A DNA stretch of 41,371 nucleotides, taken from NCBI GenBank assembly GCA_031257115.1, contig JAIRPF010000199.1:1-41371 (forward strand), in the 5' to 3' direction. How positions within the stretch are numbered: position 1 is the first letter of the stretch; every line of letters begins with the position of its first letter. The DNA comes from Accumulibacter sp. (GTDB lineage Bacteria; Pseudomonadota; Gammaproteobacteria; Burkholderiales; Rhodocyclaceae). Of this stretch, positions 11,376-31,126 are shown one piece after another. A program made the position numbers and the translations under genes. The notes under the pieces are model-generated. The model ran no database searches and was not told the DNA's origin. It saw only the letters and a program-made list of their open reading frames with translations.

Positions 11376-11804
11376 TTACGAATCCGTCTTTTGCTCCGGT
11401 TGCGTGACGAAGCCGATGCGGGTGACGCCGGCGCGGCGGGCGGCGCTCATCGTTTCGGCGACGGCGCCGTAGCGCGCCGCGCGGTCGGCCATCAGATGCA
11501 GTTCGGCGTTGCGGTCGCGCGCGATGGCTTCGCGGAAACGTTCTTCCAGCATGTCGCTGGCCAGCTTTTCGCCGTCGAGGAAAACCTCGCCGTCGGCGGT
11601 GATCGACACCGGCAGCGTCAGCGGCTTGTCGGGCGTCGGTTCGCTCGCGGCGCGCGGCAGGTCGACTTGCACCGTATGCGTCATCAGCGGCGCGGTGATG
11701 ATGAAAATGATCAGCAGGACGAGCATCACGTCGACCAGCGGCGTGGTGTTGATCTCGGCCATCGGCGCTTGCGCGCCGGAGGAGTCGAAGCGGCCCATCG
11801 CCAT
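11376..11804 (-). CDS. exbD: Biopolymer transport protein ExbD
   Basis: Inner-membrane proton-channel partner of ExbB that energises TonB. The 142-residue product has one N-terminal transmembrane helix (about residues 22-41) with the essential aspartate at D25 in TPLVDVMLVLLIIF, the same position as in E. coli ExbD, followed by a periplasmic domain. AAGG lies about 8 bases before the ATG. Three bases separate it from the exbB stop, so the two are translated from one message, with tonB upstream and cobN downstream. Confidence 0.95.
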   Translation of the reverse strand: MAMGRFDSSGAQAPMAEINTTPLVDVMLVLLIIFIITAPLMTHTVQVDLPRAASEPTPDKPLTLPVSITADGEVFLDGEKLASDMLEERFREAIARDRNAELHLMADRAARYGAVAETMSAARRAGVTRIGFVTQPEQKTDS

Positions 11805-12555: not shown

Positions 12556-13368
12556 TCATTGCTCCAGTTTGAACAAAATGGGAACGAGCACCCGGCTTTC
12601 GACGGGCGCGCCGCCGCGCCGGGCGGGGACGAATTTCCACCGGCGCACGGCGCGCAAGGCCGATTCGTCGAGACGGCCGCTGCCGGACGAGACGTCGAGA
12701 TCGACTTCCAGCGCGTCGCCGTCCTTCGAGACGAGCACGCGCAGGATGACCTTGCCTTCCTCGCCGAGGCGGCGCGATTGCGGCGGATACGGCGGCGCGG
12801 GGTTGTTCAGGTAAGCGGCATCGAAGCGCGCGCCGGTCACGGCGCCACCGGCGGCGCCGCGGTCATCGCCCGTTGCCGGGGCGGTGTTTTCGTTCCCGGC
12901 GGCCTTCGCCGGTTCGGGATCGGCGGCGATCATCGCGTCATTCCCCGCCGGTTCGTCGCTCTCCGTCGTTTCCAGCGGCGGGCGCGGGGATGGGGGCGCG
13001 GTTTTGGGTTTTGGCGCGAATTTGTAGACGGGCTTGGGAACAGGCGTGGGTTCCGGCGGCGGCTCGGCCCGCGCCGGGGGAGACAGGGGCAACGGCTCCG
13101 GGGCGATTTCGACCGGCCTTGGCGGTTCGGGCGGCGGCTCGATGAAATGAACCATCAAAGGCTTTTCGGGCGGCGCGGGAACCGCCGGTTTTAGCGTCAG
13201 CGCCGCCGCCAACGCCATGCCGTGCAGAACCAGCACGATCCCCAGCAGGCCGCCGCGCCGGAAAAGGCCGGAAGGATGGAACGGCGCGCCGCCCGTCCCG
13301 AAAATACGGATCGATCCCGCCTCGTTCCAGGATTCGCCACGGCCGAAAATAAAAATTCCAGACCCCAT
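12556..13368 (-). CDS. tonB: TonB energy-transducing protein
   Basis: Couples the ExbBD proton motive force to outer-membrane receptors. In 270 residues: a cytoplasmic N-terminus with a single transmembrane anchor at about 40-59, a Pro/Glu/Lys-rich periplasmic spacer at about 62-130, and a C-terminal TonB domain at about 184-270 including PYPPQSRRLGEEGKVILRV and WKFVPARR. The start at 13368 has only a weak GGA upstream and the N-terminus is longer than most, but no better start lies before the membrane helix. It begins 23 bp after the stop of the receptor gene at 13392-15521, so receptor, tonB, exbB, exbD and probably cobN form an operon. Confidence 0.93.
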   Translation of the reverse strand: MGSGIFIFGRGESWNEAGSIRIFGTGGAPFHPSGLFRRGGLLGIVLVLHGMALAAALTLKPAVPAPPEKPLMVHFIEPPPEPPRPVEIAPEPLPLSPPARAEPPPEPTPVPKPVYKFAPKPKTAPPSPRPPLETTESDEPAGNDAMIAADPEPAKAAGNENTAPATGDDRGAAGGAVTGARFDAAYLNNPAPPYPPQSRRLGEEGKVILRVLVSKDGDALEVDLDVSSGSGRLDESALRAVRRWKFVPARRGGAPVESRVLVPILFKLEQ

Positions 13369-13391: not shown

Positions 13392-15521
13392 TTACCAGCG
13401 CCCCTCGATCGCCACCATGACGGCGCGCGGCCGCGCGTCATCGCCGCCGAGCCGCCATTCCCGCCCGCCGGACCAGGCGCGCTGATTCCTGGATAAATCC
13501 TCGCCGAGGATGTTTTGCAGCGTGAAACGCAGGTTGGTCGCGCGATCGAGCCGGCGCACCCAATAGGCGTCGAGCGCCGAGCGTCCCCTGGTTTTCGCCC
13601 ATTGCTCGCCGGCGACGCTGGTGCGCGTATCACCGGCGCGCTGGAGCAGGAAGCCGGCGCTGGAAGAAAGCGCCGGCAGCGCCTGGTCGTAGCCGATGCT
13701 CAGGATGTAGCGGGGAAGTTCGCGCGCGTCGCGCGTGACGCCAAGCCGCCGGTCGTCGACCCGCGCCCACGGCAGGGTGAGATGAAGACGCAGCGAACCG
13801 CCTTTCGGCCCGAACGGATCGGACTTCATCTTGGCGTCGAATTCCACGCCCCAATGCCTCGCCTCGCCTTCGTTGAAAGGCCGTTCGATCCAGCGCGCGC
13901 CCTCCAGCCCGGCGCGGCGCTCGATGAAATCGCGCGTTCGGCGGTAATAGAAATTCACGCCGGCGACGGCGGACTCGTTGGGCCAATAATGTTCAACGCC
14001 GGCCTCGAAGCTGACGCCGCGCTCCGGCTTGAGAGCGGCATTGCCGCGCCGGTCGGGGTCGAGCGGCGAATTGACGCCGGTCGTCCTGACCGGCGCGTCG
14101 CTGATTTCGTCCAGCCGGGGCATCTTGAAAACGCCGCCGAGCGAAGAGCGCAGCAGCCAGCGTTCGTCGATCTCCCAGCGGGCCGCGAGCGTTGGCGACA
14201 GCGCCCCGCGCGAACGGGAATCGCCATCGGTTTCGAGAACGGCCGATTCGCCGCGCAAACCGCCGGTCAGCGTCACCGCGTCGCCGATCATCCATTCGTC
14301 CTGCACCCACAGCGTGCGCTGCCGCTCGCGCGCGCGGTACCGGCCACCGTCGACGAAAACGCCTCCGTAAGCCTGTTTTTCGTCACGCCTGAGCGCGGCG
14401 TATTCCAGGCCGACGCTGGTCACGTGTTTTCCCCAGCCGCGATCGAGGCGGAAAGCGGCATTTAGTTCGTTCTCGTCGCGCAGGATCGCTTCGCGGGCCT
14501 GCCCGGCGGAATCGTCGCGCGCGGTACGGGCATCGCGGCGGCCATCCATCAGCGACACGCGCCCGGAGAACTTGCCGCCCGCCACGGCGGTTTCGCCTTC
14601 GAGGCGCAGGCGCTTGGTGAGGTAATGGACTTTTTCGTGGCTGTCGCGCTCGAATGCCCTGAACGGCCCGTCGCCGCCCGCCGGGTCGGCGTACTGGAAG
14701 CGTTCGAGGTCGAGCCAGCGGTTGCCGCGCGCATGGAACAGCATCGGCCAGACGCTGAAACTCGCCGCGCCATCCTTCCAGTTGATTTTTGGTGCGAAAT
14801 ACTGCTCGAAGAACTCGTAACGGCCTTTTTCCGTTTCATCCTGCCACAGCGTCCGGACGCCGCCCGCGAAATCCTGCCGCCGCGCGCGCCGCTCCATCGG
14901 CGACTGATGGTCGTTGAGCGTCAGCGGCAGCGTCCAGGACCACGGGCCGCTGTATCCCTCCGCCGTCAGCGACGCCTGCGATACGGCCCGTCCGCCGCGC
15001 CGGTCGACGGCCAGCTTGTAGCCCAGGTTTTGCCTGCGCTGGCCGCGCGTGGTCACCAGGTTGACGGTCACTGGCGCGCCGCCGAATTCGGCGCTGGCGC
15101 CCTTCATGATCTCGACGCGCTCCAGCTCGCCGGACGGCATGCGCGAAACGATCAGCATGGCGTGCCGCGAATTCGACGCCGGGCGTTCGCCGTCGATCAG
15201 CACCTGCACCGAATCGCGCGCCATGCCGCGCGAACGCAGATTCACCGTCCCGTCGCTGCTCGGCGCGCCGGCGTCGACGCCCGGTAGCTTGCTAAGCACC
15301 TCGCCGACCGTCAGCCCGCCGGTCGCCTCGATGGCCTGCCGGTCCAGCACGAGCTTTTGCGTCACGGCGGCGCGTTGATCTTCAAGCGGAGATACTTTCC
15401 CGCTGACCATGACTTCCGGCAACAGGGTCCCTTCGGCGAAAGCCTCCGGCATCCAGGAAAACAGTAATCCACACGCCATCGCTCCAGCAAACCGGAATAA
15501 TCGCAAAAATATGTCTGTCAT
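13392..15521 (-). CDS. TonB-dependent outer-membrane receptor, first gene of the tonB operon
   Basis: A 709-residue outer-membrane receptor. The ATG at 15521 opens a signal peptide (about residues 1-29, hydrophobic AMACGLLFSW, cleavage near AFA-EG), then a TonB-box-like LLPEVMVSG, a plug domain (RRAVTQ-like start to SGELERVEIMKGASAEFGG) and a beta-barrel ending in an aromatic residue (EGRW). The frame runs upstream to 15713 only through degenerate gap DNA, so that part is not counted. No good Shine-Dalgarno is visible before 15521, which makes the start less certain. The ligand is unknown; its operon with tonB-exbBD-cobN suggests a metallo-tetrapyrrole or corrinoid. A broken paralogue of its N-terminus lies at 17736-18044. 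Confidence 0.85.
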   Translation of the reverse strand: MTDIFLRLFRFAGAMACGLLFSWMPEAFAEGTLLPEVMVSGKVSPLEDQRAAVTQKLVLDRQAIEATGGLTVGEVLSKLPGVDAGAPSSDGTVNLRSRGMARDSVQVLIDGERPASNSRHAMLIVSRMPSGELERVEIMKGASAEFGGAPVTVNLVTTRGQRRQNLGYKLAVDRRGGRAVSQASLTAEGYSGPWSWTLPLTLNDHQSPMERRARRQDFAGGVRTLWQDETEKGRYEFFEQYFAPKINWKDGAASFSVWPMLFHARGNRWLDLERFQYADPAGGDGPFRAFERDSHEKVHYLTKRLRLEGETAVAGGKFSGRVSLMDGRRDARTARDDSAGQAREAILRDENELNAAFRLDRGWGKHVTSVGLEYAALRRDEKQAYGGVFVDGGRYRARERQRTLWVQDEWMIGDAVTLTGGLRGESAVLETDGDSRSRGALSPTLAARWEIDERWLLRSSLGGVFKMPRLDEISDAPVRTTGVNSPLDPDRRGNAALKPERGVSFEAGVEHYWPNESAVAGVNFYYRRTRDFIERRAGLEGARWIERPFNEGEARHWGVEFDAKMKSDPFGPKGGSLRLHLTLPWARVDDRRLGVTRDARELPRYILSIGYDQALPALSSSAGFLLQRAGDTRTSVAGEQWAKTRGRSALDAYWVRRLDRATNLRFTLQNILGEDLSRNQRAWSGGREWRLGGDDARPRAVMVAIEGRW

Positions 15522-15714
15522 GGCGAAGAAGGCGGAGGTGGTTCGCAAACCGCCCCTGCTTTCCATCCCCTCTTGTGAAGAAGGGATCAGGGAAGAGCGG
15601 GAAACCCCGCAAAAGGGGAGGGTAATTGACCGCCGTGCTCCGCAAGAAGCGTCGTCTGTCATTCCAGGCGCATTCATGCGATTGTCCTGTAATTTTCTCT
15701 CTGATCTCATCATG

Positions 15715-17703
15715 TCATTTGAAGTCGTAACGCAGTCCTACGTAGAAACTCCGTCCGGCGCCGGGATAGCCCCAATACATTTCGTTCTTGCGGTCAAAGA
15801 GGTTGATGACTTCCGTGCGTAAAGTCAGCAAGCCGTAGTTGTCGCTGAAATCCGCCAATTCCTTTTCGAGACTCCAATTCACTACCGTACCCGTTGGACG
15901 GTGAATATACGGGTTTCCCGGCAGGCCATATCCTCTCGTCAGGGTAGTGCCGTAGTAATTGGCGTTAATCCGGCTCTTGATCCTGTGGTCCGGATGCGCA
16001 TAATCGACGCCGTAGCTGACCAGCCATTCCGGCGTATTGAGCAGCGTGTCATCCGGGCGACCGTGATAAATGACGCTTTTATATTGCTCGTAATCCTTGT
16101 TTTTCCGCTTTCCGAGCCAAGTGAAATTGACATAGGGTTTCAGACTGTATCTTTGTTGAAACGCTTTGCCGGCATCCACGCTCAATGAAGCTTCCAGACC
16201 GGCGATGGTCGCGTCCTTGATGTTCTGCCACTGATAGGCGCGAGGCGATCCCATCGGTGATGAGTTTCTCACGATCTTGTCTTTCCAGTCGGAATGGAAC
16301 CAGGTCAGGCTGCTGGCGATGTAGTTCCAGTGGATGTCCGCCCCGAATTCGTAAGTCTTGCTCTCTTCAGGCCGCAGCGAGGTGTTGGAAATGTCATACG
16401 GAGCGCTGCCGCCGATCTGCCGGGGCGACGGCATCTTGAAACCTTCGGCATAATTGGCGCGAAGCTTCAGCCAGTCTGCCGGCAGGTAAGCGACCCCGAG
16501 CGAGCCGCCCGTATGGTTCTTCGTATTGCTCGAGGCTTCGTTGCTTTTGTTCGTGTATTGATCGTGTCGCAGACCCGCGGAAAAAATCAGCTTTTCATCC
16601 AGAAAGCGCAGCTTGCCTGTCGCATAAAGCCCCTTGTCTTCCATCGTGCTTTTGTAGCTCTGGTTATTCTGCGAATTTTTGTATTCCAGATAATCGACAC
16701 CCGCGGAAATTGACGCCATCAGGCCGTTGTAGCCGCCCTGCGCGTTGAACGCCGTGGTTTCGAGCGTAGCCGTATAGCCGGAGGCGCTGGTGTTGGTGAG
16801 TTCCTTGTTGCGCCCGTTGGAATAGTTGGCCGACCAGTCGAAACGTTTGTCCTCCGTGCTGCCCGTATAGGAAAGCGCGGTGTTGGTATTGCGCCGGCTT
16901 GGATCGTTGTACGCCTTGGTCGGCGTGTTCGGCCGGACACCGTTCGACGAAGACAATTCGTAATCGCTGTCGGCATAGTTGTAATTGATCCCGACGCGGT
17001 GGTATTTGTTGAAGTTGTAGCCGAGGTCGAGGTTCGCCGCCGTGTTGTGTTTGATCGACGAATTGTACCAGCGTCCGAATTCCTTGGTCGTTACGTCGCC
17101 GCGCTTGGTATTCATCGCGCTCAACGCGAAATCGAAACCATTCGCCGAGTCACCAAGGGCGAGCTTTTCACGTTTCAAGCCGTCGCTACCCAGCCCGAGT
17201 TCAAGCGACGCGAACGGTGCCGCTCCACGCTTGGTGATGATATTGACGATGCCGCCCATCGCCGACGAGCCGTATTGCACAGCCGCCGGCCCGCGGATGA
17301 TTTCGATCCGTTCGATATTCGCCAGTCCCGCGAGCGCGAGGTTGGAAAGGCCCATGCGGCGGCCGTTCAGCAGTATCAGCGTCTGGTTTTCATCTTCGTG
17401 AACCATCGTCGTGGTGCCGTAACCGCGAATCGTGAGGTTGCTCGAATTGCCGGTCGTGATTATCTGAAAACCCTGCTGAACCAAAAGATCGGCAACTGTC
17501 GTCCCGGTCGATGCCTTGATATCTTCCTCGCCAAGGACAGTGATATTGCTGGAAATTTCGCGTCTGGTTTCCTGAGTGCGGTTGGCCGTCACCACGACTT
17601 CATTGAGCGTATTTGCATCCTGCGCCCAGAGCGCTTGCGGTCCTCCGAGTGCCAGAAAAGTCAGCGCCAGCGTTTTTCGTACCTTCCCTTTGCCTTGTTT
17701 CAT
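15715..17703 (-). CDS. BtuB-like TonB-dependent receptor (copy A)
   Basis: A 662-residue outer-membrane receptor. It has a signal peptide (about 1-27, ending ALWA-Q), a TonB box LNEVVVTA at about 33-40, a plug domain with the typical IERIEIIRGPAAVQYGSSA segment, and a 22-strand-type barrel ending in VGLRYDFK with a terminal-region aromatic. AAGGA lies 7 bases before the ATG. It is closely related along its length to the receptor at 22932-24989; both end in NEMYWGYPGAGRSFY, so they are a duplicated pair. The B12 setting and BtuB-like architecture suggest corrinoid uptake, but ligand residues cannot be read from sequence alone. It is inserted directly after the truncated receptor remnant at 17736-18044. 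Confidence 0.9.
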   Translation of the reverse strand: MKQGKGKVRKTLALTFLALGGPQALWAQDANTLNEVVVTANRTQETRREISSNITVLGEEDIKASTGTTVADLLVQQGFQIITTGNSSNLTIRGYGTTTMVHEDENQTLILLNGRRMGLSNLALAGLANIERIEIIRGPAAVQYGSSAMGGIVNIITKRGAAPFASLELGLGSDGLKREKLALGDSANGFDFALSAMNTKRGDVTTKEFGRWYNSSIKHNTAANLDLGYNFNKYHRVGINYNYADSDYELSSSNGVRPNTPTKAYNDPSRRNTNTALSYTGSTEDKRFDWSANYSNGRNKELTNTSASGYTATLETTAFNAQGGYNGLMASISAGVDYLEYKNSQNNQSYKSTMEDKGLYATGKLRFLDEKLIFSAGLRHDQYTNKSNEASSNTKNHTGGSLGVAYLPADWLKLRANYAEGFKMPSPRQIGGSAPYDISNTSLRPEESKTYEFGADIHWNYIASSLTWFHSDWKDKIVRNSSPMGSPRAYQWQNIKDATIAGLEASLSVDAGKAFQQRYSLKPYVNFTWLGKRKNKDYEQYKSVIYHGRPDDTLLNTPEWLVSYGVDYAHPDHRIKSRINANYYGTTLTRGYGLPGNPYIHRPTGTVVNWSLEKELADFSDNYGLLTLRTEVINLFDRKNEMYWGYPGAGRSFYVGLRYDFK

Positions 17704-18060: not shown

Positions 18061-20298
18061 TCAGAACGCGGCGCGAATTTCCAGGGAGACGTTTCTTCCG
18101 GGCATCAGGTAATACTCGTAATACTTTTTGTCGAACAGGTTATTGATTGCCAGGGTCGCCTTGAAGTTCTTGTCGATCCGGTAGCCGACGCGCAGATTGG
18201 AAAGCCAGTATTTGGCCGAACCGCCATAAACATTTTCCACGCGGTCGGAGTTGTCTTCTTGGCCGTAACGCTTGCCGACATATGTTGTCATCAGGTTGGC
18301 GGACCAATCCCGCCATCGGGCGTCCAAACCGATACTGGCCATGTTTTTCGGCACATAACGCACGAATTTGCCTTTGAGCGAGGCTCCCGTATCGTCCTTC
18401 GTGATTTTCGCGTCGGTCCAGGTATAGCTCGCCGAGGCGCGCAACCACGATGCAAGCGGCATTTCGCCGGAAAGTTCGATGCCTTTTGTCAGCGATTCGC
18501 CCGCGTTGGTCATTCTGGAAAGCTCCGTGATCGGAACACCGCCCAGGTAATCGTAGCTGCCGTCCGAGGGGAAAACCTTGCGATAAAGCATGTCTTTCAG
18601 TTTCGTCCGGTAAACGGCCGCCTTGACGAAGCCGTTTCCGGGTAGCGCTTTTTCGACGCCAAAATCGATCGCCGTCGCTGTTTCCGGCTTGACGCCCGGG
18701 TCGGGAACGAGTATGCGGGCGCCGGAAGTGCCGTTTTTATCGGTGCTCCTGCTCAATGCGTACATATCGTTATTGGTCGGCGCGCGGAAGGCTTTCCCGA
18801 CCGAGGCGCGGAAACTCAAGGTGTCGTTCCAGCGGTAAACGACGGCGAGCTTCGGTGAAAACGCCGATTTCGACGCTTTCGACTTCAGCGTGCCCACGGA
18901 ATTCCAGACCGTACCATCGCTTGTCCATTTGTCATAGCGTCCACCGGCGTAAAGCGTCAGCGCGTCCGTCACGAAAATCTGGTCCTGGATGAAGAAGGCG
19001 TTGATCCGGCTATCGGCGTCGGTGGTATCCCGCAATCCGGTATGGTGGCCTTCGGGATGCCGCCAGTTGCTGACGTTGTAGCTTTTGCGATCCAGTTCAT
19101 TGCGCGCCGAGGAGAGGCCAAGGATCAGGTATTGCTTCTGGCCGATGGCGGAACCAAGCTGGATCGAACCTTCGAGATTATTCGACGGCGTACCGGTTTG
19201 ATAGCCCAGGCCGCCGTTGAACGTCGCGCCCGACAGGGACGTGACGTAGTAATAATCCTGTTTGGCATAACTGATGTTGGCGTTCAGGTCGAAATTCTGG
19301 CCCAGCTTGCCGTCGTACCCGGCAAAATAGCGGTATTCCTCGTTATACGTCGGGGCGCTGGTGTTCCACAGCGTCGTTCCCGTGACCGCGGGGCCGCTGA
19401 TGTATTGGTGATAATTCCGGTAGCCTTGCTTGGCTTCAAAATAACCAAAACCGGCGTAGAACCGCGATTTCCGGTCGAGTTCGTAAAAAATCCTGGCGTT
19501 GACGCGGGAAATACGCGAAGGAATCGCGCCGCTGTCGCCAATCAGATACGTGGGATCCCCTTTGGTATTGGTCGACACATCCTTGGGGTCACGCGACGCA
19601 TAGGACTTTGTGGCGCTCCATACCTGATTCTGCTTCCTGGAACCCTCCCTTTCCTCGTAGCCCGCGCTGAACGACAGGGCCAGTCCATTCTCCCAGCGGT
19701 TGCGGTAGCTGGCGGAATAGCCATCGCGTTTGACCTCGTCGAAGCCGTGAATGTATTTGGCGTTGATTTCCTGCTTCGTCGGAACCTTGGTGATGACATT
19801 GACGACGCCGCCGATCGCGTCGCTGCCGTAAAGCGCCGAAGAGACGCCTGGGACGACCTCGATGCGCTCGATGTCGTCCATCTCGATGCCGACAAGACTG
19901 CGGTTCTGCCCGGAGTTGCCGTCGGCGAGGCTGACGCCGTCGAGCATGATTTTCACGCGGCTCAGGTTCTGGCCGCGCAGCGAATGCGTCGAACCCGTGA
20001 TGGCGCGATCCGCGATACCCGTCGGGCCGCGCCAATAGAAGCCTGGCACCCTGGCCGTCAAGGCGTCGGTCGGGCGCGCCGCGCCGGTTTCTTCGAGCTT
20101 TTCGGCGCTCACGACGGAAACGCTCGCGGGCGCTTCGAGCGAATGTTGTTCGATGCGCGAAGCGGTCACGACGACTTCACCGAGACTTTCGTCGGCGCGC
20201 GCGGGTTCTTGCGCCGACGCCTGCCACGTTCCCGTCAGGGCGGCCATGCCAAGCGCCCCGATCAGTTTCTTCCGTTTTTTCTCTTGCCGCATTTTCAT
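18061..20298 (-). CDS. TonB-dependent outer-membrane receptor
   Basis: A 745-residue receptor with a Lys/Arg-rich signal peptide (about 1-29, ending ASA-Q), a TonB box (SLGEVVVTASR, about 38-48), a plug domain with IERIEVVPGVSSALYGSDA and VVNVITK, and a barrel ending NVSLEIRAAF. A strong AGGAG lies five bases before the ATG at 20298. It differs in sequence from the two BtuB-like copies and the operon receptor, so it may take a different ligand; siderophore, haem and corrinoid remain possible. Only 91 bp separate it from the CbiZ-nitrilase gene upstream, and part of that is repeat DNA, so co-transcription is plausible. Confidence 0.92.
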   Translation of the reverse strand: MKMRQEKKRKKLIGALGMAALTGTWQASAQEPARADESLGEVVVTASRIEQHSLEAPASVSVVSAEKLEETGAARPTDALTARVPGFYWRGPTGIADRAITGSTHSLRGQNLSRVKIMLDGVSLADGNSGQNRSLVGIEMDDIERIEVVPGVSSALYGSDAIGGVVNVITKVPTKQEINAKYIHGFDEVKRDGYSASYRNRWENGLALSFSAGYEEREGSRKQNQVWSATKSYASRDPKDVSTNTKGDPTYLIGDSGAIPSRISRVNARIFYELDRKSRFYAGFGYFEAKQGYRNYHQYISGPAVTGTTLWNTSAPTYNEEYRYFAGYDGKLGQNFDLNANISYAKQDYYYVTSLSGATFNGGLGYQTGTPSNNLEGSIQLGSAIGQKQYLILGLSSARNELDRKSYNVSNWRHPEGHHTGLRDTTDADSRINAFFIQDQIFVTDALTLYAGGRYDKWTSDGTVWNSVGTLKSKASKSAFSPKLAVVYRWNDTLSFRASVGKAFRAPTNNDMYALSRSTDKNGTSGARILVPDPGVKPETATAIDFGVEKALPGNGFVKAAVYRTKLKDMLYRKVFPSDGSYDYLGGVPITELSRMTNAGESLTKGIELSGEMPLASWLRASASYTWTDAKITKDDTGASLKGKFVRYVPKNMASIGLDARWRDWSANLMTTYVGKRYGQEDNSDRVENVYGGSAKYWLSNLRVGYRIDKNFKATLAINNLFDKKYYEYYLMPGRNVSLEIRAAF

Positions 20299-20389: not shown

Positions 20390-22087
20390 TTACGGCGACA
20401 CTTCGGAAAACCCTTGCCCGCCGTCCCAATCGACATAAAACACCCGCGTTTGCGATGAAGTAAACGTAAACAGCCGCCGCCCATTCACCGAAACGGCGCT
20501 TTGTCCTTGCGTGAAATCGAGTTCCGGTTCGACGCCGGTGCGGTTGTTCGCCACCAGCGGCAAGCCGGTTTCGCGCGAGCGGTCTTCCCACGCGCTTTTC
20601 GGCCCCATGTCGCCGACCGGCGGCCAGTTGGCCGGCGAGAGCAGGATCGCGGCCCCGTTTTCGCGCAAAAGCGCGGCATATTCCGGCCCGTGGGCGTCGG
20701 AACAGATCAGCAGGCCGACGGGAACGCCGTCGACCACGAAAGGCTCGTTTTCCTTGCCGGGCTTCGCCCACGCCTCGGCGGAGCCATGCACGAACCGTTT
20801 GCGGTACGCGCCGGCAATGACGCCCTGGCGATCGATGGCCGCCACGCTGTTGTGCAGTTCGCCGGTTTTCGCGTCGCGCTCGGCGAAGCCGATGAACAGC
20901 GCAATGCCGTTGTCGTGGGCAATCGCCGCCATGCCGCGCATCCAGGCGCCGGGAAAAGGCTCGATCCAGTTCGTGCCGATGCGCCGATTGAAGTTGTAGC
21001 CGGTCTCGGCGAGTTCCGGCGTCACCACCCAATCGGCCCCGTGCGCCCACGCCTCGGCAATGCCCGCCTCGATGCGCGCGCGATTGCCGGCCACGTCGTC
21101 CGGCGCGCTGTCCATGTGCAGCAACGCGATGCGCAGGGCATTTTCCGGCTTGCCGGCGGCGCTACGCTTGCCCGTAAACTTTTTCGCGCCGGGCAGGAAG
21201 AATCCATTCTGTTTGCCCAGCGCCTCGATGACGGCTTCATGCGCGGCCGCGCCGATCAGCCCGCCGACGCGGCTGTGTCCGCCGGCGTAAGTCACGTTCG
21301 GGCCGCTCGTTCCGGAAACGACAGTGACGCTGTCGGTGCCGGTGCCGGTCGCCTGGGCGGCGGGGGTATAGGTGCTCGGCACCCGCAAATCCTGCAAGGC
21401 CGCGGTCTTGGCTTCGGTGACGGCGACGATGGCGCGCGCCATCGCGCCGTCGGTCAGCCGCGCGTTGGTCAGCAGCATGATGTTGATCGTCCCGTGAGTG
21501 TCGTTTTCGCCTTCGGTGTGCTCGCCCATGTCGACGCCGGCGCGCTGGGCGTTGGAACGCGCTCCGGCGGTCGCCAGAATGGTGACTGTCAGCGGGCCGT
21601 GGGTCTTCGTCACCACGGCCAGGTTGTCGAGATCGGCCGCCGTCGCCATCTGGACGACGCTCGCCGGTTCGACGCCGGTGCGCGCCGCCATCCGTTCGCG
21701 GATGAATTCGACATAGGCCTGGCCGCCGCGCCTCCCCTTGTGCGTAAAGTTGGGCGTCACGCGCTCAAAAAGCCACGGGTGCCCCGAATGATTGATGGCG
21801 GCCCTGGCTTCCGTCAGGCCATCGTAGGTCGACAATGCGCGGCGCTTTTGCGGGAAGGTGACGAGCAGGGTTTTTTCCCAAAGCCCCTCGCGCTCGCCGC
21901 GCAGAATAGTTGCCGTGGCTTCGAGTTCGGGCGGCACGGCGAGATACTCCTCCGCCGGCGGCGCGGCGAGGACAGCGGAGGCAACGAACAGGAACGCCGT
22001 TGCCAGGCATTCCGTCATCATGCGCTTCGCCGTGCCGCGCGACCGATTGGAAATCGATGGACCTTCGTGTGTTTGTGAAAAATTCAT
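20390..22087 (-). CDS. Exported CbiZ (adenosylcobinamide amidohydrolase)-nitrilase fusion
   Basis: A 565-residue two-domain protein. Residues about 22-41 form a signal peptide (ECLATAFLFVASAVLA then APP), predicting export. Residues about 55-290 match CbiZ: NHSGHPWLFER-like start, ATAGARSNAQRAG, HGTINIMLLTNARL, VTEAKTAALQDL, QATGTGTDSVTV and YAGGHSRVGGLIG. CbiZ cleaves the aminopropanol side arm from adenosylcobinamide to give adenosylcobyric acid. Residues about 318-565 are a carbon-nitrogen hydrolase with a full Glu-Lys-Cys set: E358 (TPELAETGYN), K430 (YRKRF), C462 (LLICSDAHG). The ATG at 22087 has GGAG nine bases upstream; the frame extends further only through repeat DNA. Known CbiZ proteins act in the cytoplasm, so export and fusion are unusual. 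The hydrolase substrate is unknown; a corrinoid amide or the released arm is inference. Confidence 0.88.
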   Translation of the reverse strand: MNFSQTHEGPSISNRSRGTAKRMMTECLATAFLFVASAVLAAPPAEEYLAVPPELEATATILRGEREGLWEKTLLVTFPQKRRALSTYDGLTEARAAINHSGHPWLFERVTPNFTHKGRRGGQAYVEFIRERMAARTGVEPASVVQMATAADLDNLAVVTKTHGPLTVTILATAGARSNAQRAGVDMGEHTEGENDTHGTINIMLLTNARLTDGAMARAIVAVTEAKTAALQDLRVPSTYTPAAQATGTGTDSVTVVSGTSGPNVTYAGGHSRVGGLIGAAAHEAVIEALGKQNGFFLPGAKKFTGKRSAAGKPENALRIALLHMDSAPDDVAGNRARIEAGIAEAWAHGADWVVTPELAETGYNFNRRIGTNWIEPFPGAWMRGMAAIAHDNGIALFIGFAERDAKTGELHNSVAAIDRQGVIAGAYRKRFVHGSAEAWAKPGKENEPFVVDGVPVGLLICSDAHGPEYAALLRENGAAILLSPANWPPVGDMGPKSAWEDRSRETGLPLVANNRTGVEPELDFTQGQSAVSVNGRRLFTFTSSQTRVFYVDWDGGQGFSEVSP

Positions 22088-22931: not shown

Positions 22932-24989
22932 TTATTTGTAGTCATAGCGCAGGCCGATGTAGAAGCTGCGTCCCGCGCCGGGATAGCCCCAATACATCTC
23001 GTTGGAACTGTCGAAGAGGTTGATGACTTCGGTGCGCAGTGTCAGCGTGCCGGACGGCCCGCCCAGGTCGACGAGTTCCTTTTCGAGACTCCAATTGACG
23101 ACGGTGCCGCCGCCTTTCATGAAATAGCCGGAAGGCCGGGTCGAGCCGTAATTGTTGGTATACCTCTTGCCGGAATGATTGGCGTTGAGCCGGCTCTTGA
23201 TTTTGTAGCCCGGATGCGCGTAGTCGATGCCGAAACTCGCCATCCATTCCGGCGTGTTGGGCAGGACTTTTTTCAGGCTCCCGTCATAAGTGGTGAACCA
23301 CCGGCTCTCGTCCTTGTTCTTGCGGGTTCCCAGCCATGTGAAGCTGGCATAGGGCGCGAGGCTGTAATTCTGCTTGAACGCCTTGCCAACGTCCCATTTG
23401 ATCGAACCTTCCACGCCGGCGAGTTCGGACTTCTTGATGTTCTGGTACTGATAGCACCCGTAGCCTCCGGTGCAGACGCCGCCCGGATAGGACAAGGCAA
23501 TAATCTTCTCTTCCCAGCTGGAATGGAACCAGGTCAGGCCCGCGTCGACGTGATTCCAGTTGAAGTCCGCGCCGAATTCATATGTCTTGTTCTTTTCCGG
23601 CTTGAGGCTGGGGTTGGGCGCGTAATACATTCCCCCGTCTCCGCCGACCTGGCTGGGCGACGGCATCTTGAAACCTTCCGCGTAGTTGGCGCGCAGTTTC
23701 AGCCATTTTATTGGCAGGAAGGCCGCGCCGACCGCCCCGGTCGTCTGGTTTTCCTTGTGGCTGGAATCGCCCTTGTTTTTGTTGGTATACCGGTCATGGC
23801 GCAGACCGGCGGAGAAAATCAGGCGTTCGTCGAGCAGCCGCAGCTTGCCCGTCGCATACGCGCCGGTATCCTCCATCGTCGATTTGGCGGTATAGGCATC
23901 GATGTCATAGGTATAGCGATCCAGACCGGCGGAAACCGAAATCAGCGAACCGTTGTAACCGCCCTGCGCGTTGAAGAAATCGGTATCGACACGGCTTTTG
24001 TTCGAGCTGCGCCTGGCTTGGCCGGGGCTCCAGTAGACCTGGTCGTAATCCCCGAAGGAATACGTCGCCGACCAGTCGTATTTCCGGTCCTCCGTGCTCC
24101 CCGCATAGGTCAGCGCCGTGTTCTTGACTTTCTTGTGATAGTGGTTATACGGATTGTCGCGGTCGTTCACTGGATAACCGGCGCTCCAGGCGCTTGGCGC
24201 ATCGCCGCGAATGCCGCCATTCGTTGACGACAGATCGGACTTGATGTCGCCGTGGTTGTAGCCGATGCCGACGCGGTTGTATTTGTTGAAGCTGTAACCC
24301 AGATCGAGATTCGCCATCGTGTCTTTCACCGACGAGTGATACCAGCGCCCGAAGTCGGCGGTCGTCACGTCGCCGCGCTTGTAATTCGACGCGCCGAGGG
24401 CGAAATCGAAGCCGTTGGCCGCGCCGGACAAGGCGAGTTTTTCACGCGACATATGGTCGCTGCCGAGTCCCGCTTCGATGGAAATGACGGGTTTGCCTTC
24501 CTTTCCCTGTTTGGTGATGATGTTGACGACGCCGCCCAGCGCGGACGAGCCGTACTGTACCGCCGACGGCCCGCGGATGATTTCGATCCGCTCGACGTTT
24601 CCCAGTCCCATGACCGCCAGGTTGGAAGTGCCGGTGCGCCGGCCGTTCAACAGGATCAGCACGGTGTTTTCATACTCCGTGGTCATCGAAAGATTGCCGA
24701 AGCCGCGAATCTGGATGTTGGTCGTATCGCCCGTCGTGACGGCGTTGAACCCCTGTTCGACCATGATGTCGGCCACCGTCGAGGCGGTCGACGCCTTGAT
24801 GTCGCTCTCGGTGATGACGGTGACATTGCTGCTCACTTCGCGCTTCGATTCCTGCGCGCGGCTCGCGGTCACCACCATCGTGTTCAGCGTGGCTTCCTGC
24901 GCCGACGCGTCAAGCGGCGCGGCGAACGCGGCGATCCCCGCGACGGCCGTGGCCATCGCGCCTTGTTTCCCTGCATTGCGTCTTTTCAT
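22932..24989 (-). CDS. BtuB-like TonB-dependent receptor (copy B)
   Basis: A 685-residue outer-membrane receptor with a signal peptide (about 1-30, ending ASA-Q), TonB box LNTMVVTAS at about 35-43, a plug domain containing VERIEIIRGPSAVQYGSSA, and a barrel ending YIGLRYDYK. AGGAG lies about eight bases before the ATG. It is a clear paralogue of the receptor at 15715-17703, matching through most barrel strands, with loop differences such as an extra GGVCTGGYGCYQ segment whose two cysteines could form a surface-loop disulphide. It is the first receptor after the mutase-meaB genes. Its first 19 or so codons and leader are duplicated in the small ORF at 25091-25348. Corrinoid transport is the likeliest role from context. 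Confidence 0.91.
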   Translation of the reverse strand: MKRRNAGKQGAMATAVAGIAAFAAPLDASAQEATLNTMVVTASRAQESKREVSSNVTVITESDIKASTASTVADIMVEQGFNAVTTGDTTNIQIRGFGNLSMTTEYENTVLILLNGRRTGTSNLAVMGLGNVERIEIIRGPSAVQYGSSALGGVVNIITKQGKEGKPVISIEAGLGSDHMSREKLALSGAANGFDFALGASNYKRGDVTTADFGRWYHSSVKDTMANLDLGYSFNKYNRVGIGYNHGDIKSDLSSTNGGIRGDAPSAWSAGYPVNDRDNPYNHYHKKVKNTALTYAGSTEDRKYDWSATYSFGDYDQVYWSPGQARRSSNKSRVDTDFFNAQGGYNGSLISVSAGLDRYTYDIDAYTAKSTMEDTGAYATGKLRLLDERLIFSAGLRHDRYTNKNKGDSSHKENQTTGAVGAAFLPIKWLKLRANYAEGFKMPSPSQVGGDGGMYYAPNPSLKPEKNKTYEFGADFNWNHVDAGLTWFHSSWEEKIIALSYPGGVCTGGYGCYQYQNIKKSELAGVEGSIKWDVGKAFKQNYSLAPYASFTWLGTRKNKDESRWFTTYDGSLKKVLPNTPEWMASFGIDYAHPGYKIKSRLNANHSGKRYTNNYGSTRPSGYFMKGGGTVVNWSLEKELVDLGGPSGTLTLRTEVINLFDSSNEMYWGYPGAGRSFYIGLRYDYK

Positions 24990-25413: not shown

Positions 25414-26601
25414 TCACGGCCCGAAAAATCCTTCGCCTCCCTTTTCCACGGCGAGCAGGCGCGTGGCGGCCAGGGTTGGCGACATGCGGCCTTCGATGAC
25501 CTCCCGCTCGATCCCCGGCAGGCGCGCCCTGACCCCGGAGTTTCCATAGAACGCGCGCCTAATCTGTTCGAGGATCAGGTTGTGCATCCAGTCGAGGTTC
25601 TGTTGCTGGCGGCGGCGCTCGAATACGCCGGAGACCGTGGTGCTCGCGCGGAAAGCCTCGACCGCGCGCCACAGTTCGTCGATGCCCTCGCCGGTGTAGG
25701 CCGAGCAGGCGAGCGCCTGCGTTTTCCACCCTTCCGTCGACGGCTGGAGGTAGCGCAGGATGCGTTCGTAGTCGGCGCGGGCGGCGGCGGCGCGCGTCTT
25801 GTTGTCGCCGTCGGCCTTGTTGACCACGATGAGGTCGCAGCGCTCCATGACGCCCTTCTTGATGCCCTGCAACTCGTCGCCCGCGCCGGCGATCTGGAGG
25901 AGCAGGAAGAGGTCGACCATCGAGCGGACGGTGATCTCGCTCTGGCCGACGCCGACCGTTTCGACGAGGATCACGTCGAAGCCGGCCGCTTCGCAGACGA
26001 TCATCGTCTCGCGGCTTTTGCGCGCCACGCCGCCGAGCACGCCGCCGGAGGGCGACGGGCGGATATAGGCGTTGCGGTTGCGCGAGAGCTGCTCCATGCG
26101 CGTCTTGTCGCCGAGGATGCTGCCGCCGGTGACGCTGCTGGAGGGATCCACCGCCAGCACGGCGAGCCGGCGGCCTTGCCCGCACAGGCGCAGTCCGAGC
26201 GTTTCGATCAGCGAGCTTTTGCCGGAACCGGGCACGCCCGTGATGCCGACGCGGATCGTTTGCCCGGCGTGGGGAATCAGGCGCGTGAGCATTTCCTGCG
26301 CCTTTTCCTGGTGGCGCTCGGCGTTGCTTTCGACGAGCGTGATCGCGCGCGCGAGCACGCTCCGGTCGCCCGACAGCACGCCGTCGACGTAATCGTCGAT
26401 GGCAAGCTCCGGACGTTTCCCGCGCGCCGGAAAAGTGGTGATTTCCCTCGCGGTGACTTCCGCCGCCGCGCCGCCGGGCAAGCCGTCGTGCCGGCTCTTG
26501 ATCCCCGGCATGACGTTGGTGGTAAAGCCTTCCGCCTCGCCGGCCCGCTCCGGCACCCATTCGGGGCGGTGGTGCGTGTCATGCGCGTTTTCGCCGTTCA
26601 T
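25414..26601 (-). CDS. meaB: MeaB/ArgK-type G-protein chaperone of methylmalonyl-CoA mutase
   Basis: A GTPase that gates cofactor loading and protects methylmalonyl-CoA mutase from inactivation. In 395 residues: Walker A GVPGSGKSS at about 122-130, the family-specific VDPSSSVTGGSILGDKTRM, the switch segment VETVGVGQSE, the guanine-specificity motif NKAD at about 261-264, and a C-terminal helical dimerisation tail. The ATG at 26601 is chosen because AGGGGA lies five bases upstream and the frame further up is repeat-derived. The N-terminus is about 60-80 residues longer than most MeaB proteins. It directly follows the mutase genes, as in many bacteria, but the 165-bp gap is filled with an inverted repeat. 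Confidence 0.95.
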   Translation of the reverse strand: MNGENAHDTHHRPEWVPERAGEAEGFTTNVMPGIKSRHDGLPGGAAAEVTAREITTFPARGKRPELAIDDYVDGVLSGDRSVLARAITLVESNAERHQEKAQEMLTRLIPHAGQTIRVGITGVPGSGKSSLIETLGLRLCGQGRRLAVLAVDPSSSVTGGSILGDKTRMEQLSRNRNAYIRPSPSGGVLGGVARKSRETMIVCEAAGFDVILVETVGVGQSEITVRSMVDLFLLLQIAGAGDELQGIKKGVMERCDLIVVNKADGDNKTRAAAARADYERILRYLQPSTEGWKTQALACSAYTGEGIDELWRAVEAFRASTTVSGVFERRRQQQNLDWMHNLILEQIRRAFYGNSGVRARLPGIEREVIEGRMSPTLAATRLLAVEKGGEGFFGP

Positions 26602-26627
26602 CCGCGTCCCCTGTCGATTCATTTCAT

Positions 26628-26748
26628 TGACCACGGGAAACACGGAGGGCGCGGAGAAAGGCAAAACCCTGAAAATTCCGTCCGGCGAAATTTGCTCGTC
26701 ATGCAATGCTCCATCTTTCTCCATGTTCTCCGTGCTCTCCGTGAGCGA
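26628..26748. repeat. Inverted ACGGAG-type repeat between scpA and meaB
   Basis: ACCACGGGAAACACGGAGG (from about 26630, continuing GCGCGGAGAAAGG) and the facing CTTTCTCCATGTTCTCCGTG (from about 26715) form long imperfect complementary arms around a 45-bp loop. The mutase-meaB message would therefore carry a large hairpin just upstream of the meaB ribosome-binding site. Related single or paired copies lie near 2090, 6750, 22400 and 32600. Confidence 0.65.
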
Positions 26749-26766: not shown

Positions 26767-28941
26767 TCAGCCATCGAGCGCCGCGTTGAGTTTTTCCAGC
26801 ACCTTCCGGGCCGCCACGGGGATCACGGTGCCCGGCCCGAAGATCAGCGCCGCGCCGTTCTGGTAGAGGAAGTCGTAGTCCTGCGCCGGAATGACGCCGC
26901 CGATGCAGGCCAGGATGTCGCCGCGCCCGCGTTCTTCGAGCGCCCGCACGAGCTGCGGCAAAAGCGTGTTGTGCCCGGCGGCGAGCGAGCTGAAGCCGAC
27001 GACGTGCACGTCGTTTTCCACGGCCATGTCGGCGGCCTCCTCCGGCGTCATGAACAGGGGACTCACGTCGACGTCGAAACCGAGATCGGAGAACGCCGTG
27101 GCGATCACCTTGGCGCCCCGGTCGTGCCCGTCCTGGCCGATCTTGGCGACCAACATGCGCGGACGCCGTCCGTGTCTTTGTTCGAATTCGGCGCACATCG
27201 TCTGCACCGTCGCCAGTTCCGCGTTCTCGGCGTATTCGGCGCTATAGACGCCGGAAATCGAGCGGATCACCGCCTTGTGGCGCGGAAAGACTTCCTCGAT
27301 GGCGTCCGATATTTCGCCCAGACTGGCGCGCGCCTTGGCCGCCTCGACCGCGAGTTCGAGCAGGTTGCCGTTCTCGCGCGACTCGGCGGCGCGGGTGATC
27401 GCGCGGAGCAGTTGGCGCACGCGCGCGTTGTCGCGCCCGGCCTTGAGCTTCTTCAGGCGTTCGATCTGCGCGGCGCGCACGGCGGTGTTGTCGATCGACA
27501 GAATGTCGATCGGGTCCTCGTGTTCCAGCCGGTATTTGTTGACGCCGATGATCGGTTCGGCGCGCGAATCGATGCGCGCCTGCCGGCGCGCCGCCGCTTC
27601 TTCGATACGCATTTTGGGCAGGCCGGTTTCGATGGCCTTGGCCATGCCGCCGAGCTTTTCGACTTCGACGATGTGGCCCCACGCTTTCTTGCGCAACTGG
27701 TCGGTCAGCCATTCGACATAGTACGAACCGCCCCACGGGTCGATCGACTTGCAGATGCCGGTCTCGCTTTGCAGGTAGATTTGCGTGTTGCGGGCGATCC
27801 GCGCGGAAAAGTCGGTCGGCAGCGCGATCGCCTCGTCGAGCGCGTTGGTGTGCAGCGACTGGGTGTGACCGAGCGTCGCGGCCATCGCCTCGATGCAGGT
27901 GCGCGCGACGTTGTTGAACGGGTCCTGCTCCGTGAGGCTCCAGCCCGAAGTCTGCGAATGCGTGCGCAGCGCCAGCGATTTCGGGTTCCTGGGATTGAAC
28001 TGCTTCAGGAGCTTGGCCCACAGCAGGCGGCCGGCGCGCAGCTTGGAAACCTCCATGAAATGATTCATGCCCTCGGCCCAGAAGAAGGAGAGACGCGGCG
28101 CGAACTTGTCGACGTCGATGCCGGCGGCGATGCCGGTGCGCACGTATTCGAGGCCGTCGGCGATGGTGTAGGCGAGTTCGATGTCCGCCGTCGCGCCGGC
28201 TTCCTGCATGTGGTAGCCGGAAATGCTGATGCTGTTGAACTTGGGCATGCACTTCGAGGTGTACTCGAAGATGTCGCCGATGATGCGCATCGAGCCTTTC
28301 GGCTCGTAAATGTAGGTGTTGCGCACCATGAATTCCTTGAGGATGTCGTTCTGGATCGTGCCCGAAAGCTGATCGAGACGCGCGCCCTGCTCCAGCCCGG
28401 CGACGATGTAAAAAGCCAATACCGGCAGCACCGCGCCGTTCATGGTCATCGAAACGGACATTTCGGAGAGCGGAATCCCGGAAAAGAGGATTTCCGCGTC
28501 GAGGATCGAATCGACCGCGACGCCGGCCTTGCCGACGTCGCCGACGACGCGCGGATGGTCGGAATCGTAGCCCCGGTGCGTGGCGAGGTCGAAGGCCACC
28601 GACAATCCCTTCTGTCCCATCGCCAGGTTGCGGCGATAGAAGGCGTTGCTCTCCTCCGCCGTCGAAAAACCCGCGTACTGGCGGATCGTCCAGGGCCGCT
28701 GCACGTACATCGTCGGGTACGGGCCGCGCAGGTTGGGCGCGATGCCGGCCGAAAAGCCCAGATGCTCGATACCGGCGGTATCCTCCTCGGTATAGAGCGC
28801 CTTGACCGGAATCTGCTCGTTGGTCATCCACACCGGCGCTTCGCCGGCGCGCGCCGCGAACGCCTTCTCCCAGGCTTTTTCGCTGACCGCCCGCATGGCC
28901 GGACGGTAGGCCATTTCACTGAAATTCGGAAACGTGCTCAT
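26767..28941 (-). CDS. scpA: Methylmalonyl-CoA mutase large (B12-binding) subunit
   Basis: Adenosylcobalamin-dependent interconversion of succinyl-CoA and (R)-methylmalonyl-CoA, used in propionate formation or degradation. The 724-residue protein has the N-terminal TIM-barrel domain ([20 protein letters not shown], and the active-site region with [15 protein letters not shown]), a linker, and a C-terminal cobalamin domain with the base-off DxHxxG motif in [11 protein letters not shown] at about residue 604. This identifies the catalytic subunit (MutB/McmA2). The ATG at 28941 lies five bases after the small-subunit stop, and the ribosome-binding GGGTGA overlaps that stop. It therefore forms a translationally coupled pair with the small subunit. 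Confidence 0.97.
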
Positions 28942-28945: not shown

Positions 28946-31126
28946 TCACCCTATGTATTTGTCGTGCAGTTTTCTGTTGATCTCGTAGCAATTGGCGCGC
29001 ACGTGGATGTAGTCGTCCACGCCGGCGGCGTTGAACGCCTCGGTCGCCTCGGGCGGCTGCTTGCCGGCGACGATGACCGTGGTATCGGGCTTGACCGCCT
29101 TGATGCGCCGGGTCAGTCTCGGCACATAATCGGGATAGGTGGCGTCGGTCGAACAGATCACCGCCACCAGCGCGCCGGAAGCGAACATCGCGTCGGCGGC
29201 CGCCTCGACGGTCTCGAAGCCCTCGTTGCCGAGCACCTCGAAACCCGCCACTTCAAAGAAGCCGCGCGAAAAATCCGCGCGCGGCTTATGCTGCGGAATC
29301 GGCCCCATGTTGGCGAGGAAAATGCGCAGCTTGCGGCCCTCCCCGGCGAATTTCGTCTCGACCCGCCGGCGCAGGTTCTCGAACGATTCGGCGAGGCGCG
29401 CGATCCTGAGCGGCGGCGCTTCCGGCCGGGCGGCGTCGAGTCCGGCGAGCACCTCGGAGAGTTCGCCGAGCGTCGCGCCGCTGGCGACCGCGTCGATCGC
29501 CAGTTCCACCGCGTCGCCGCCCGCGCCGGAAAAACCTTCTTCGATCCGGGTCAGGTCGAAACCGAGTGAAAAAAGCCGGTACGCGCGCCGTTGCCCGGCC
29601 ACTTCGTCCACGCGCGCCTTCTTCAGCGCGGCGCGGTCGACGCGCGGCGCTTCGATCTTCTTCTCGGCCAGGTTGGCGTACATGTTGGTGCCAAGGATCA
29701 CGTCGACGCGCGTCTCGACGGCCTTCGCGCGCTTCGCGGCGGTCGCCGCCGCCATCGCCCTCGGCGCGCCGGCCGCGAGCGCGGCGGCCATGCCGCCGTT
29801 CTTTTCGATGTCCTGGAAGAGCCGCCACGCGGTCTCGGCGAACTCGTGCGTCAACCTTTCGATGGTGTAGGAGCCGCCGCCCATGTCGATCGGCATGACG
29901 AAACGCGCTTCCTCTTGCAGCATGATTTGCGCGTTGCGCGCGATGCGCCGCGAAAAACGGTCGGGCGTGCGGATCGGCTCGTCGAACGGCGCGAGGTGCA
30001 TACTGTCAACGCCGCCCACCGCGCCGGAAAAACCTTCGCTCGTCACGCGCAGCATGTTCACGTAAGGGTCGAAAACCGTCTTGTTGAACGCCGAGGAGCG
30101 GGCATGGAGGGTCATCTTGCGCGCCTCGTCCGATCCGCCGAACGCTTCGACGATTTGCGCCCACAGGATGCGCGCGGCGCGCAGCTTGGCGATCTCCATG
30201 AAGAAATTCGAGCCGAGCGAGAGACCGAAACGGATGCGCGGCGCGACCTCGTCGACCGTCAATCCGCGCCGGATCGTCTCGCGCAGGTATTCGGTCGCGG
30301 TCGCCAGCGCGAAAGCGACTTCCTCCGTCGAACTCGCGCCGGCGTCGTGGTACGGATGGCCCCGCGCGAGAATCGTTTGCAGTTTCGGCGCTTTCTTCAG
30401 CGCCCACGCGGTGGTCTGGTACAGGCAGTCATAAGCCGTGCCGAGCGAGACGGCGAGTTTTCCGTCGGCGGCCAGCTCGCCGAGCGGATCGCCGCCGACG
30501 CAGCCTTCGAGTCCGTAAATGTGATTGACGCCTTTCCCGTTGTCCTGCAACGCGACGGCCAGCATGGCCAGGAGCGGCAGGGCGGCCGCGCCCGCGTGGC
30601 AATGCACGGCGACGCGCGCCAGATCGATGTCGCGGAAAAGCGTCGCCACGTCGGCGAGCGTCGCGAGCGAGACGCCGCGCGCGCCCACCTCGTCATCGGG
30701 CGCGTCCGCCGGATCCTGCCCGGCGCGCGTCGGGGAATCGAGCACGATATTGAGCGCCGTCTGGCCGCGCGCGATGTCGTGGCGCGCTTCCTCGTTGAAC
30801 TCCCTCGGAAAGGCCAGCGTGATTTCCTGACTGATGCGCCACGGCTCTCCAATAAAACCGTTGGGCCGCGCGCCGCGCGCGAAGGGCGGAAAGCCGGGCT
30901 TCGCGCCGAGATGCGGCAATCCCGCGATGTCCTCGGCGCAATAGATCGGCTGGATGGTCAGGCCCTCGCAGGTCTTGGTATACATGACCTTGTCGAAGGG
31001 CGCGCCCTTGAGCGCGGCGACCGCCTCTTCCTTCCAGCGCGCCTTGTCCGGCGTTTCGAATTCGGCGAAAAAGCCGCGCTCGGCATCGATCGCCGTGATG
31101 TCGACCGCCGCGGTCTGGTCTTCCAT
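28946..31126 (-). CDS. mutA: Methylmalonyl-CoA mutase small subunit
   Basis: The non-catalytic partner of the heterodimeric methylmalonyl-CoA mutase. The 726-residue protein resembles the large subunit in its barrel domain ([37 protein letters not shown]-like region, [14 protein letters not shown]) but lacks the DxHxxG cobalamin motif; the equivalent site reads [19 protein letters not shown], as expected of the small subunit. The ATG at 31126 has AGGAG about nine bases upstream and matches the family start; the frame extends further without support. It is the first gene after the tandem cobalamin riboswitches, with a 470-nt untranslated stretch in between. Confidence 0.95.

Follow-up and report, generated by a model that had tools for sequence, protein, structure and literature searches.

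The window analyzed here is positions 1 to 41,371 (forward strand) of contig JAIRPF010000199.1 of an Accumulibacter sp. genome (assembly GCA_031257115.1). Its reverse strand carries a 565-amino-acid open reading frame (ORF) in which a predicted signal peptide is followed by a CbiZ domain, a variable linker, and a carbon-nitrogen (CN) hydrolase domain (Table 1). The frame is free of internal stops, and the GC content of third codon positions is of the coding type over most of it. A preliminary description of this DNA had proposed that CbiZ is joined here to a carbon-nitrogen hydrolase, and this is borne out, since both Pfam matches lie above cut-off in one intact frame. The first spans nearly the full CbiZ profile (PF01955, positions 2 to 191 of 191; E 2.8e-48, 164.9 bits versus a cut-off of 27), which places the domain in that family as had been supposed; the second covers positions 1 to 232 of 256 of the CN_hydrolase profile (PF00795; E 1.7e-26, 93.5 bits versus 23.2). 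Pfam at E 0.001 detected no further domain in the fusion, and NCBIfam returned only partial matches, to CbiS over its CbiZ part and to seven models of the nitrilase type, each well short of its cut-off. According to a whole-genome search, the fusion is the sole CbiZ of this organism. A scan for promoters and terminators yielded nothing above chance.

Residues E358, K430, and C462, singled out in the preliminary description, are present as stated and, together with E438, are invariant in all 34 aligned rows whose amidase is complete (the window plus 33 of the 34 full-length fusions introduced below, L060 being unaligned; the other 11 rows of the alignment lack an amidase). On the CbiZ side, 14 columns are identical across 37 of 37 proteins, exported and cytoplasmic type alike (the window, 12 exported proteins picked from 50 loci, L099, L126, and 22 cytoplasmic-type proteins; L091, L137, and the duplicate L088 were excluded; L and G numbers denote loci and genomes). 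A PDB sequence search at E 0.01 found no chain matching the CbiZ half. The fold comparison covered the amidase half only and supports a nitrilase-superfamily fold; its top rows are mostly amidases, with many ties and one entry titled nitrilase. The amidases listed there, such as the Pyrococcus horikoshii amidase 6ypa, a Nesterenkonia amidase, and formamidases, share 16 to 29% identity with the CN domain of the fusion, and we know of no CbiZ partner for any of them.

The predicted signal peptide reads MNFSQTHEGPSISNRSRGTAKRMMTECLATAFLFVASAVLA, with cleavage before APPAE. M1, M23, and M24 are each possible starts, and a GGAG lies upstream of M1. We assessed export with a home-made test that looks for a charged n-region, an uncharged 10-residue core, and small residues at -3 and -1, and whose relaxed form permits a longer n-region. 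Among 52 exported-type proteins (the window, the 50 loci, and L099), 47 passed the strict form (all but the window, L038, L067, L076, and L079) and 49 the relaxed form (all but L038, L067, and L079), versus 2 of 24 cytoplasmic-type proteins in either form, a rough control in that several profile matches begin inside the protein, so that the stretch tested is not the true N terminus. Shuffled N termini passed the relaxed form in 193 of 1040 cases. The window copy fails the strict form because its n-region is long; it passes the relaxed form, which is compatible with the signal peptide that had been seen at the N terminus. Alternatively, the fusion might not be exported, or might start inside the hydrophobic stretch, and thus be an ordinary cytoplasmic CbiZ, as the strict-form failure and the uncertain start would allow. 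We regard this as highly improbable in view of the 49 of 52 relaxed-form passes and of two loci described below, one with a separate exported CN hydrolase (L099) and one with a fusion of CbiZ to BtuF (L139).

Like-built fusions occur in other genomes at about 59 to 65% identity. Across 399 genomes of the order, at least three besides the window's own match nearly the whole protein (61 to 63% identity), all of the same family. A survey of genomes for the same fusion, suggested earlier, was carried out as a scan of genome contigs queried with an alignment of four fusions, which possibly left out records near the window genome. It returned 36 fusion loci, 34 of them complete and 2 cut inside the amidase by the contig end (L063 and L066), along with 14 unfused relatives that have no amidase. 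A frameshift or assembly artifact is ruled out, because 34 complete in-frame fusions exist in other genomes. Where genus names are given, the hosts of the fusion are Propionivibrio, Dechloromonas, Azonexus, and Zoogloea; the others bear only broader names. Five of the 14 unfused loci place DUF4019 after the exported CbiZ (L069, L071, L074, L076, and L087), a CbiZ-DUF4019 fusion that occurs in Accumulibacter and Zoogloeaceae bins. In the other nine, including Trichlorobacter, Geobacteraceae, Syntrophaceae, and Holophagaceae, CbiZ stands alone. No plasmid-borne fusion was found: with the whole protein as query, 292 plasmid records matched, none of which held 80% of the protein, and the CbiZ part matched a single plasmid record, from Dehalococcoides (32.6%).

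The exported-type CbiZ proteins form a subfamily that spans several phyla. A tree built from 68 CbiZ proteins separates 44 exported-type rows from 24 cytoplasmic-type ones at a 100/99 branch; the tree program warned of long branches in several rows, the Rhodobacter sphaeroides and archaeal enzymes are absent, and L088 and the near-duplicates L042, L046, L058, L059, L060, L065, L080, L082, and L084 were left out. L126, initially labeled cytoplasmic, falls inside the exported set. L126 is a BtuF-CbiZ fusion with a hydrophobic N terminus, a single frame that matches both Peripla_BP_2 (E 8.4e-20) and CbiZ (E 2.8e-55). Locus L139 of genome G988 extends further, and there the frame encodes 690 amino acids (7993 to 10065, reverse strand); from the start chosen, the protein does not pass the strict signal-peptide test. 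The gene overlaps one for a CobN-like protein with hydrophobic ends, and its gene run comprises an upstream cobalamin riboswitch, DUF2162, the CobN-like protein, and CbiK. By eye, the neighbors in L139 were assigned as a TonB receptor, ExbB-like proteins, a second BtuF-like protein, ExbD, and TonB.

We found the amidase of the fusion linked to CbiZ in two further arrangements. In L099, an exported CbiZ gene overlaps a separate CN hydrolase gene with its own hydrophobic N terminus. In G930, which has two CbiZ genes, a cluster ordered CN hydrolase, TonB receptor, DUF7676, membrane protein, CbiZ occurs twice (Table 1; Pfam was run on one copy for the receptor and DUF7676), and a cobalamin riboswitch separates the CN gene from the receptor. 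Here the CN hydrolase lies about 5 kb from a cytoplasmic-type CbiZ in both clusters, and no signal peptide was seen on the CN hydrolases (by eye) or on the CbiZ proteins (L133 and L138, relaxed test). When a profile of ten CN domains was run against 398 genomes of the phylum, only the window's own protein and the two G930 copies exceeded 280 bits, the next match scoring 118 bits. A tree of 33 CN hydrolases joins the fused, paired, and G930 domains and a Peribacillus plasmid protein on a 100/99 branch, with 20 others apart. CN hydrolases in L071 and L079 were rejected as partners of this clade, as they fall in other branches and are not adjacent to CbiZ. The clade is thus linked to CbiZ in three arrangements, with the compartment matched each time, and is not strictly confined to CbiZ, and the majority of CbiZ loci that have no fusion do not contain it; the independent cases are G540 and G930, because the survey included the window genome on purpose. 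The amidase therefore seems to follow CbiZ and its compartment.

Table 1. Positions of the fusion gene, its parts, its neighbors in the window, and the duplicated cluster of G930.
Feature	Position	Strand	Basis
Exported-type CbiZ-CN hydrolase fusion, 565 aa	20390..22087	-	ORF, Pfam, like-built fusions elsewhere
Predicted signal peptide, residues 1-41, long n-region	21965..22087	-	Home-made test (relaxed form passed, strict form failed)
CbiZ domain PF01955, residues 78-286	21230..21856	-	Pfam, conserved columns
Variable linker, about residues 301-316	21140..21187	-	Alignment
CN_hydrolase domain PF00795, residues 319-540	20468..21133	-	Pfam
Codon of E358 (catalytic Glu by homology)	21014..21016	-	34/34 rows
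Codon of K430 (catalytic Lys by homology)	20798..20800	-	34/34 rows
Codon of E438 (probable second Glu, putative role)	20774..20776	-	34/34 rows
Codon of C462 (nucleophile by homology)	20702..20704	-	34/34 rows
Cobalamin riboswitch	32006..32215	-	RF00174, 114.8 bits
Second, tandem cobalamin riboswitch	31584..31854	-	RF00174, 81.6 bits
Methylmalonyl-CoA mutase, small-subunit-like	28946..31207	-	Pfam/NCBIfam
Methylmalonyl-CoA mutase with B12-binding domain	26767..28941	-	Pfam/NCBIfam
MeaB GTPase	25414..26724	-	Pfam/NCBIfam
TonB-dependent receptor upstream of fusion	22932..24989	-	Pfam
TonB-dependent receptor directly downstream of fusion	18061..20298	-	Pfam
TonB-dependent receptor	15715..17703	-	Pfam
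TonB-dependent receptor	13392..15713	-	Pfam
TonB	12556..13368	-	Pfam
ExbB	11808..12554	-	PF01618
ExbD	11376..11804	-	PF02472
CobN, cytoplasmic type (no N-/C-terminal hydrophobic stretch)	7478..11338	-	Best solved chain 7c6o CobN
G930 duplicated cluster, copy 1	L156:8107-14161
G930 duplicated cluster, copy 2	L157:8645-14397

In the window, the fusion is part of a single-strand gene series that runs from two riboswitches through two mutases, meaB, and a receptor to the fusion, and on through three receptors, tonB, exbB, and exbD to cobN. The corrinoid setting that had been read into this neighborhood holds up: TonB receptors flank the fusion, two riboswitches lie on the same strand, and related loci have riboswitches as well. 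No riboswitch was found directly upstream of the fusion within 17500 to 25500; control of the fusion by the riboswitches farther upstream is plausible. The receptors at 22932 to 24989 and 15715 to 17703 are about 57 to 58% identical to each other, perhaps through local duplication. A 114-amino-acid remnant at 17700 to 18044 (reverse strand) resembles the N terminus of a TonB receptor, with 57.7% identity over 78 amino acids to the receptor at 13392 to 15713; its Plug match falls below the cut-off.

Among relatives, 36 of the 50 loci contain a match to a home-made riboswitch-core pattern, which in 31 of these lies upstream of CbiZ and shares its strand; the pattern matched none of 20 loci whose bases had been shuffled. 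With cmscan, cobalamin riboswitches were found in all of 15 sources (the window, L032, L034, L036, L038, L049, L056, L062, L072, L077, L099, L126, L139, L156, and L157) except L036, L099, and the short L126. Three settings recur: riboswitch-btuB-btuC-btuD-(btuF)-cobO-fusion-(CobN-like, ExbB-like, DUF2149)-cbiA; nrdA-fusion-nrdB, in some cases with btuF between; and receptor-ExbB/D-CobN. Counted over the 36 fusion loci, the neighbors include a TonB receptor in 26, CobO in 19, BtuC in 18, CobN in 16, CbiA in 14, NrdA in 9, and NrdB in 8; BtuD-like proteins appear in 24, a query that also picks up other ABC ATPases. By gene order, the fusion sits between the ribonucleotide reductase genes nrdA and nrdB in L056, L057, L059, L062, L067, L083, and L085, and all of these except L067 and L083 have an upstream B12 riboswitch core.

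Taken together, we consider it probable, judging from sequence, that the fusion is an exported periplasmic corrinoid-processing enzyme that acts during uptake. A TonB-dependent receptor would carry cobamides or cobinamide into the periplasm, where the CbiZ domain would cleave the amide holding the aminopropanol arm (nucleotide loop), leaving a cobyric-acid-type corrinoid. The CN hydrolase domain, as a Glu-Lys-Cys amidase, might act on the same corrinoid by hydrolyzing a primary carboxamide, either before the CbiZ cut or after it; this choice of substrate is a guess, and a corrinoid-directed side-chain amidase would, to our knowledge, be a new activity in B12 metabolism. BtuF/BtuCD would receive the product, which the cell would then rebuild in the cytoplasm with a lower ligand of its own; CobO, CbiB, and de novo genes are present. 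Because CbiZ would be kept out of the cytoplasm, the cell's own cobamides would be spared a futile cycle. Export, CbiZ activity, and hand-over to BtuF are steps that we infer. The riboswitch loci, the BtuF-CbiZ fusion, and the exported-type subfamily back the fusion, its export signal, its catalytic residues, and its corrinoid setting beyond what the sequence by itself could do; processing in the periplasm before uptake, as the preliminary description had suggested, is reached by inference.

For the amidase, the recurrent linkage of its clade to CbiZ would favor action on the corrinoid itself, because an amidase of the same clade also sits near cytoplasmic CbiZ; a substrate that is something unrelated, one of the options left earlier, appears less likely. 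It could also be that CbiZ works in the periplasm as proposed while the CN hydrolase acts on something else that accompanies B12 uptake, whether a fragment set free by cleavage, cyanide or a nitrile, or some small amide in general. In favor of this are the breadth of the nitrilase superfamily, the scatter of sequence matches of the CN half across many activities, the lack of a primary amide in the released arm, and the Peribacillus clade member, which is not near B12 genes. We nevertheless consider this unlikely: the linkage to CbiZ is recurrent and compartment matched, and the top fold rows are mostly amidases.

A further possibility is suggested by the CobN-like chelatases of the relatives. 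Chelatases of the HmuS/BtuS type accompany exported CbiZ in L038, L039, L041, L047, L049, L051, L058, L069, L073, L074, L087, L099, and L139. Of 12 CobN-like ORFs clustered from relatives' loci (the window's was excluded), 9 have hydrophobic stretches at both the N and C termini; L041 has the C-terminal one only, and in L074 and L087 the ORF is truncated by the end of the locus. The exported set might therefore serve to dismantle corrinoids in the periplasm, reversing late B12 synthesis: CbiZ would remove the arm at f, the amidase would make carboxylates, and the exported CobN/HmuS-like chelatase would remove cobalt. In line with this, the two chelatases tested, from L099 and L139, match the heme dechelatase HmuS first in the PDB, the BtuF-CbiZ gene overlaps one of them, and in L099 the CobN-like gene belongs to the same gene run as the exported CbiZ. 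The HmuS lead is small (in L139, 16 bits over CobN; in L099, 19 over ChlH and 42 over CobN), and the window's own CobN is of the cytoplasmic type, with CobN as its nearest solved chains and no other PF02514 match in the genome. We know of no enzymatic removal of cobalt. HmuS takes iron out of heme, as stated in the part of PMC12583661 available, and BtuS names a group of CobN-like proteins for which anchoring in the periplasm has been predicted in Bacteroides fragilis (PMC6460266, in part). CbiA in the fusion operons was considered as a sign of re-amidation and rejected. CbiA, assigned to the weaker of two strong GATase_3 matches by its lower score, has one copy in each of G111, G363, and G336 and is found as well in two genomes without the fusion, G218 and G307, so operon CbiA gives re-amidation no support; G000 yielded a single strong GATase_3 match, and its CbiA was not found. 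All in all, periplasmic dismantling seems quite improbable; if true, foreign corrinoids would supply ring and cobalt in those relatives that have an exported HmuS/BtuS-type chelatase.

Several observations weigh against the fusion as a periplasmic corrinoid-processing enzyme. The window copy's signal peptide is atypical. The window riboswitches lie upstream, separated from the fusion by about 9.5 kb that hold two mutase genes, meaB, and one receptor, and the fusion gene follows a gap of 844 bp that contains repeats (two 156-nucleotide copies, 92% identical, and inverted repeats at 22139 to 22695). No riboswitch core was matched in 9 of the 34 loci with a complete fusion or in 5 of the other 16 rows, and most Zoogloea loci and the G336 locus have no clear B12 neighbors. 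Within the reach of the loci, no clade amidase was detected around the 14 exported-type CbiZ genes that are not fused to one, nor in the CbiZ loci L100 to L106 (seven loci of 12 to 19 kb) or the BtuF-CbiZ locus L139, and the Peribacillus plasmid clade member lies beside germination genes with no B12 neighbors within 9 kb. Assays of known CbiZ enzymes used adenosyl-corrinoids as substrates, and adenosylation needs ATP, which the periplasm lacks. We know of no measured activity for exported CbiZ or for this amidase clade.

The host itself is likely a B12 maker able to rebuild cobyric acid, because its genome holds CbiC, CbiD, CbiX, CobO, CbiB, one CobN, and, on the CbiC contig, a FecCD permease. 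Its B12 cluster also includes, beside CobO, a DUF71-type protein (PF01902; L144:15554-16243, reverse strand) whose membership of the B12 subgroup is putative. According to a 2012 survey, in the portion at hand, DUF71-B12 and CbiZ are strictly anti-correlated in bacteria (PMC3541065), a rule that exported CbiZ need not obey.

Compared with known systems, the window CbiZ resembles that of R. sphaeroides and archaea (PF01955) in the whole domain, the conserved columns, and the B12 salvage context. Those known CbiZ proteins stand alone and are not known to have a signal peptide, whereas the window protein is fused, is predicted to be exported, and branches apart from the 24 cytoplasmic-type proteins. 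CbiS (CbiZ-alpha-ribazole phosphatase, NF038002) is likewise a bifunctional CbiZ fusion; the window protein matches it over the CbiZ part only (65.2 bits versus 250), and its second domain is a CN hydrolase instead of a phosphatase. The exported, membrane-anchored chelatases predicted next to exported CbiZ in relatives are of the HmuS/BtuS dechelatase type, although HmuS acts on heme and the window carries only a cytoplasmic-type CobN. The CbiZ reaction itself is given in an excerpt of PMC7733943, which also covers CbiR of Akkermansia muciniphila: that enzyme, too, starts cobamide remodeling, and its possible coupling to uptake is discussed, but it is of an unrelated family and cuts the phosphoribosyl bond. 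In Dehalobacter restrictus, an operon induced by corrinoid starvation has CbiZ beside CobN and a corrinoid-type ABC transporter; the likeness is by description, not by sequence, and the available section of the paper mentions neither export nor an amidase partner (PMC4285132).

Both CbiZ and CN hydrolases are known families; new within the literature searched are the exported CbiZ, its fusions, and the link between the amidase clade and CbiZ. Titles and abstract openings of the open-licence literature contained no report of an exported CbiZ, of its fusion to CN hydrolase, DUF4019, or BtuF, or of the clade linkage, and the accessible parts of PMC8620254, PMC7733943, PMC3541065, PMC4758666, PMC5723603, PMC4285132, and PMC8305020 mention neither CbiZ export nor an amidase partner. 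How a cell with CbiR protects its own cobamide is posed as a puzzle in the text available of PMC7733943, where coupling to uptake is suggested for CbiZ. Placing CbiZ in the periplasm, or attaching it to BtuF, would solve this puzzle of self-destruction by compartment, an idea that can be tested in named strains of Azonexus, Dechloromonas, Propionivibrio, and Trichlorobacter that carry such genes.
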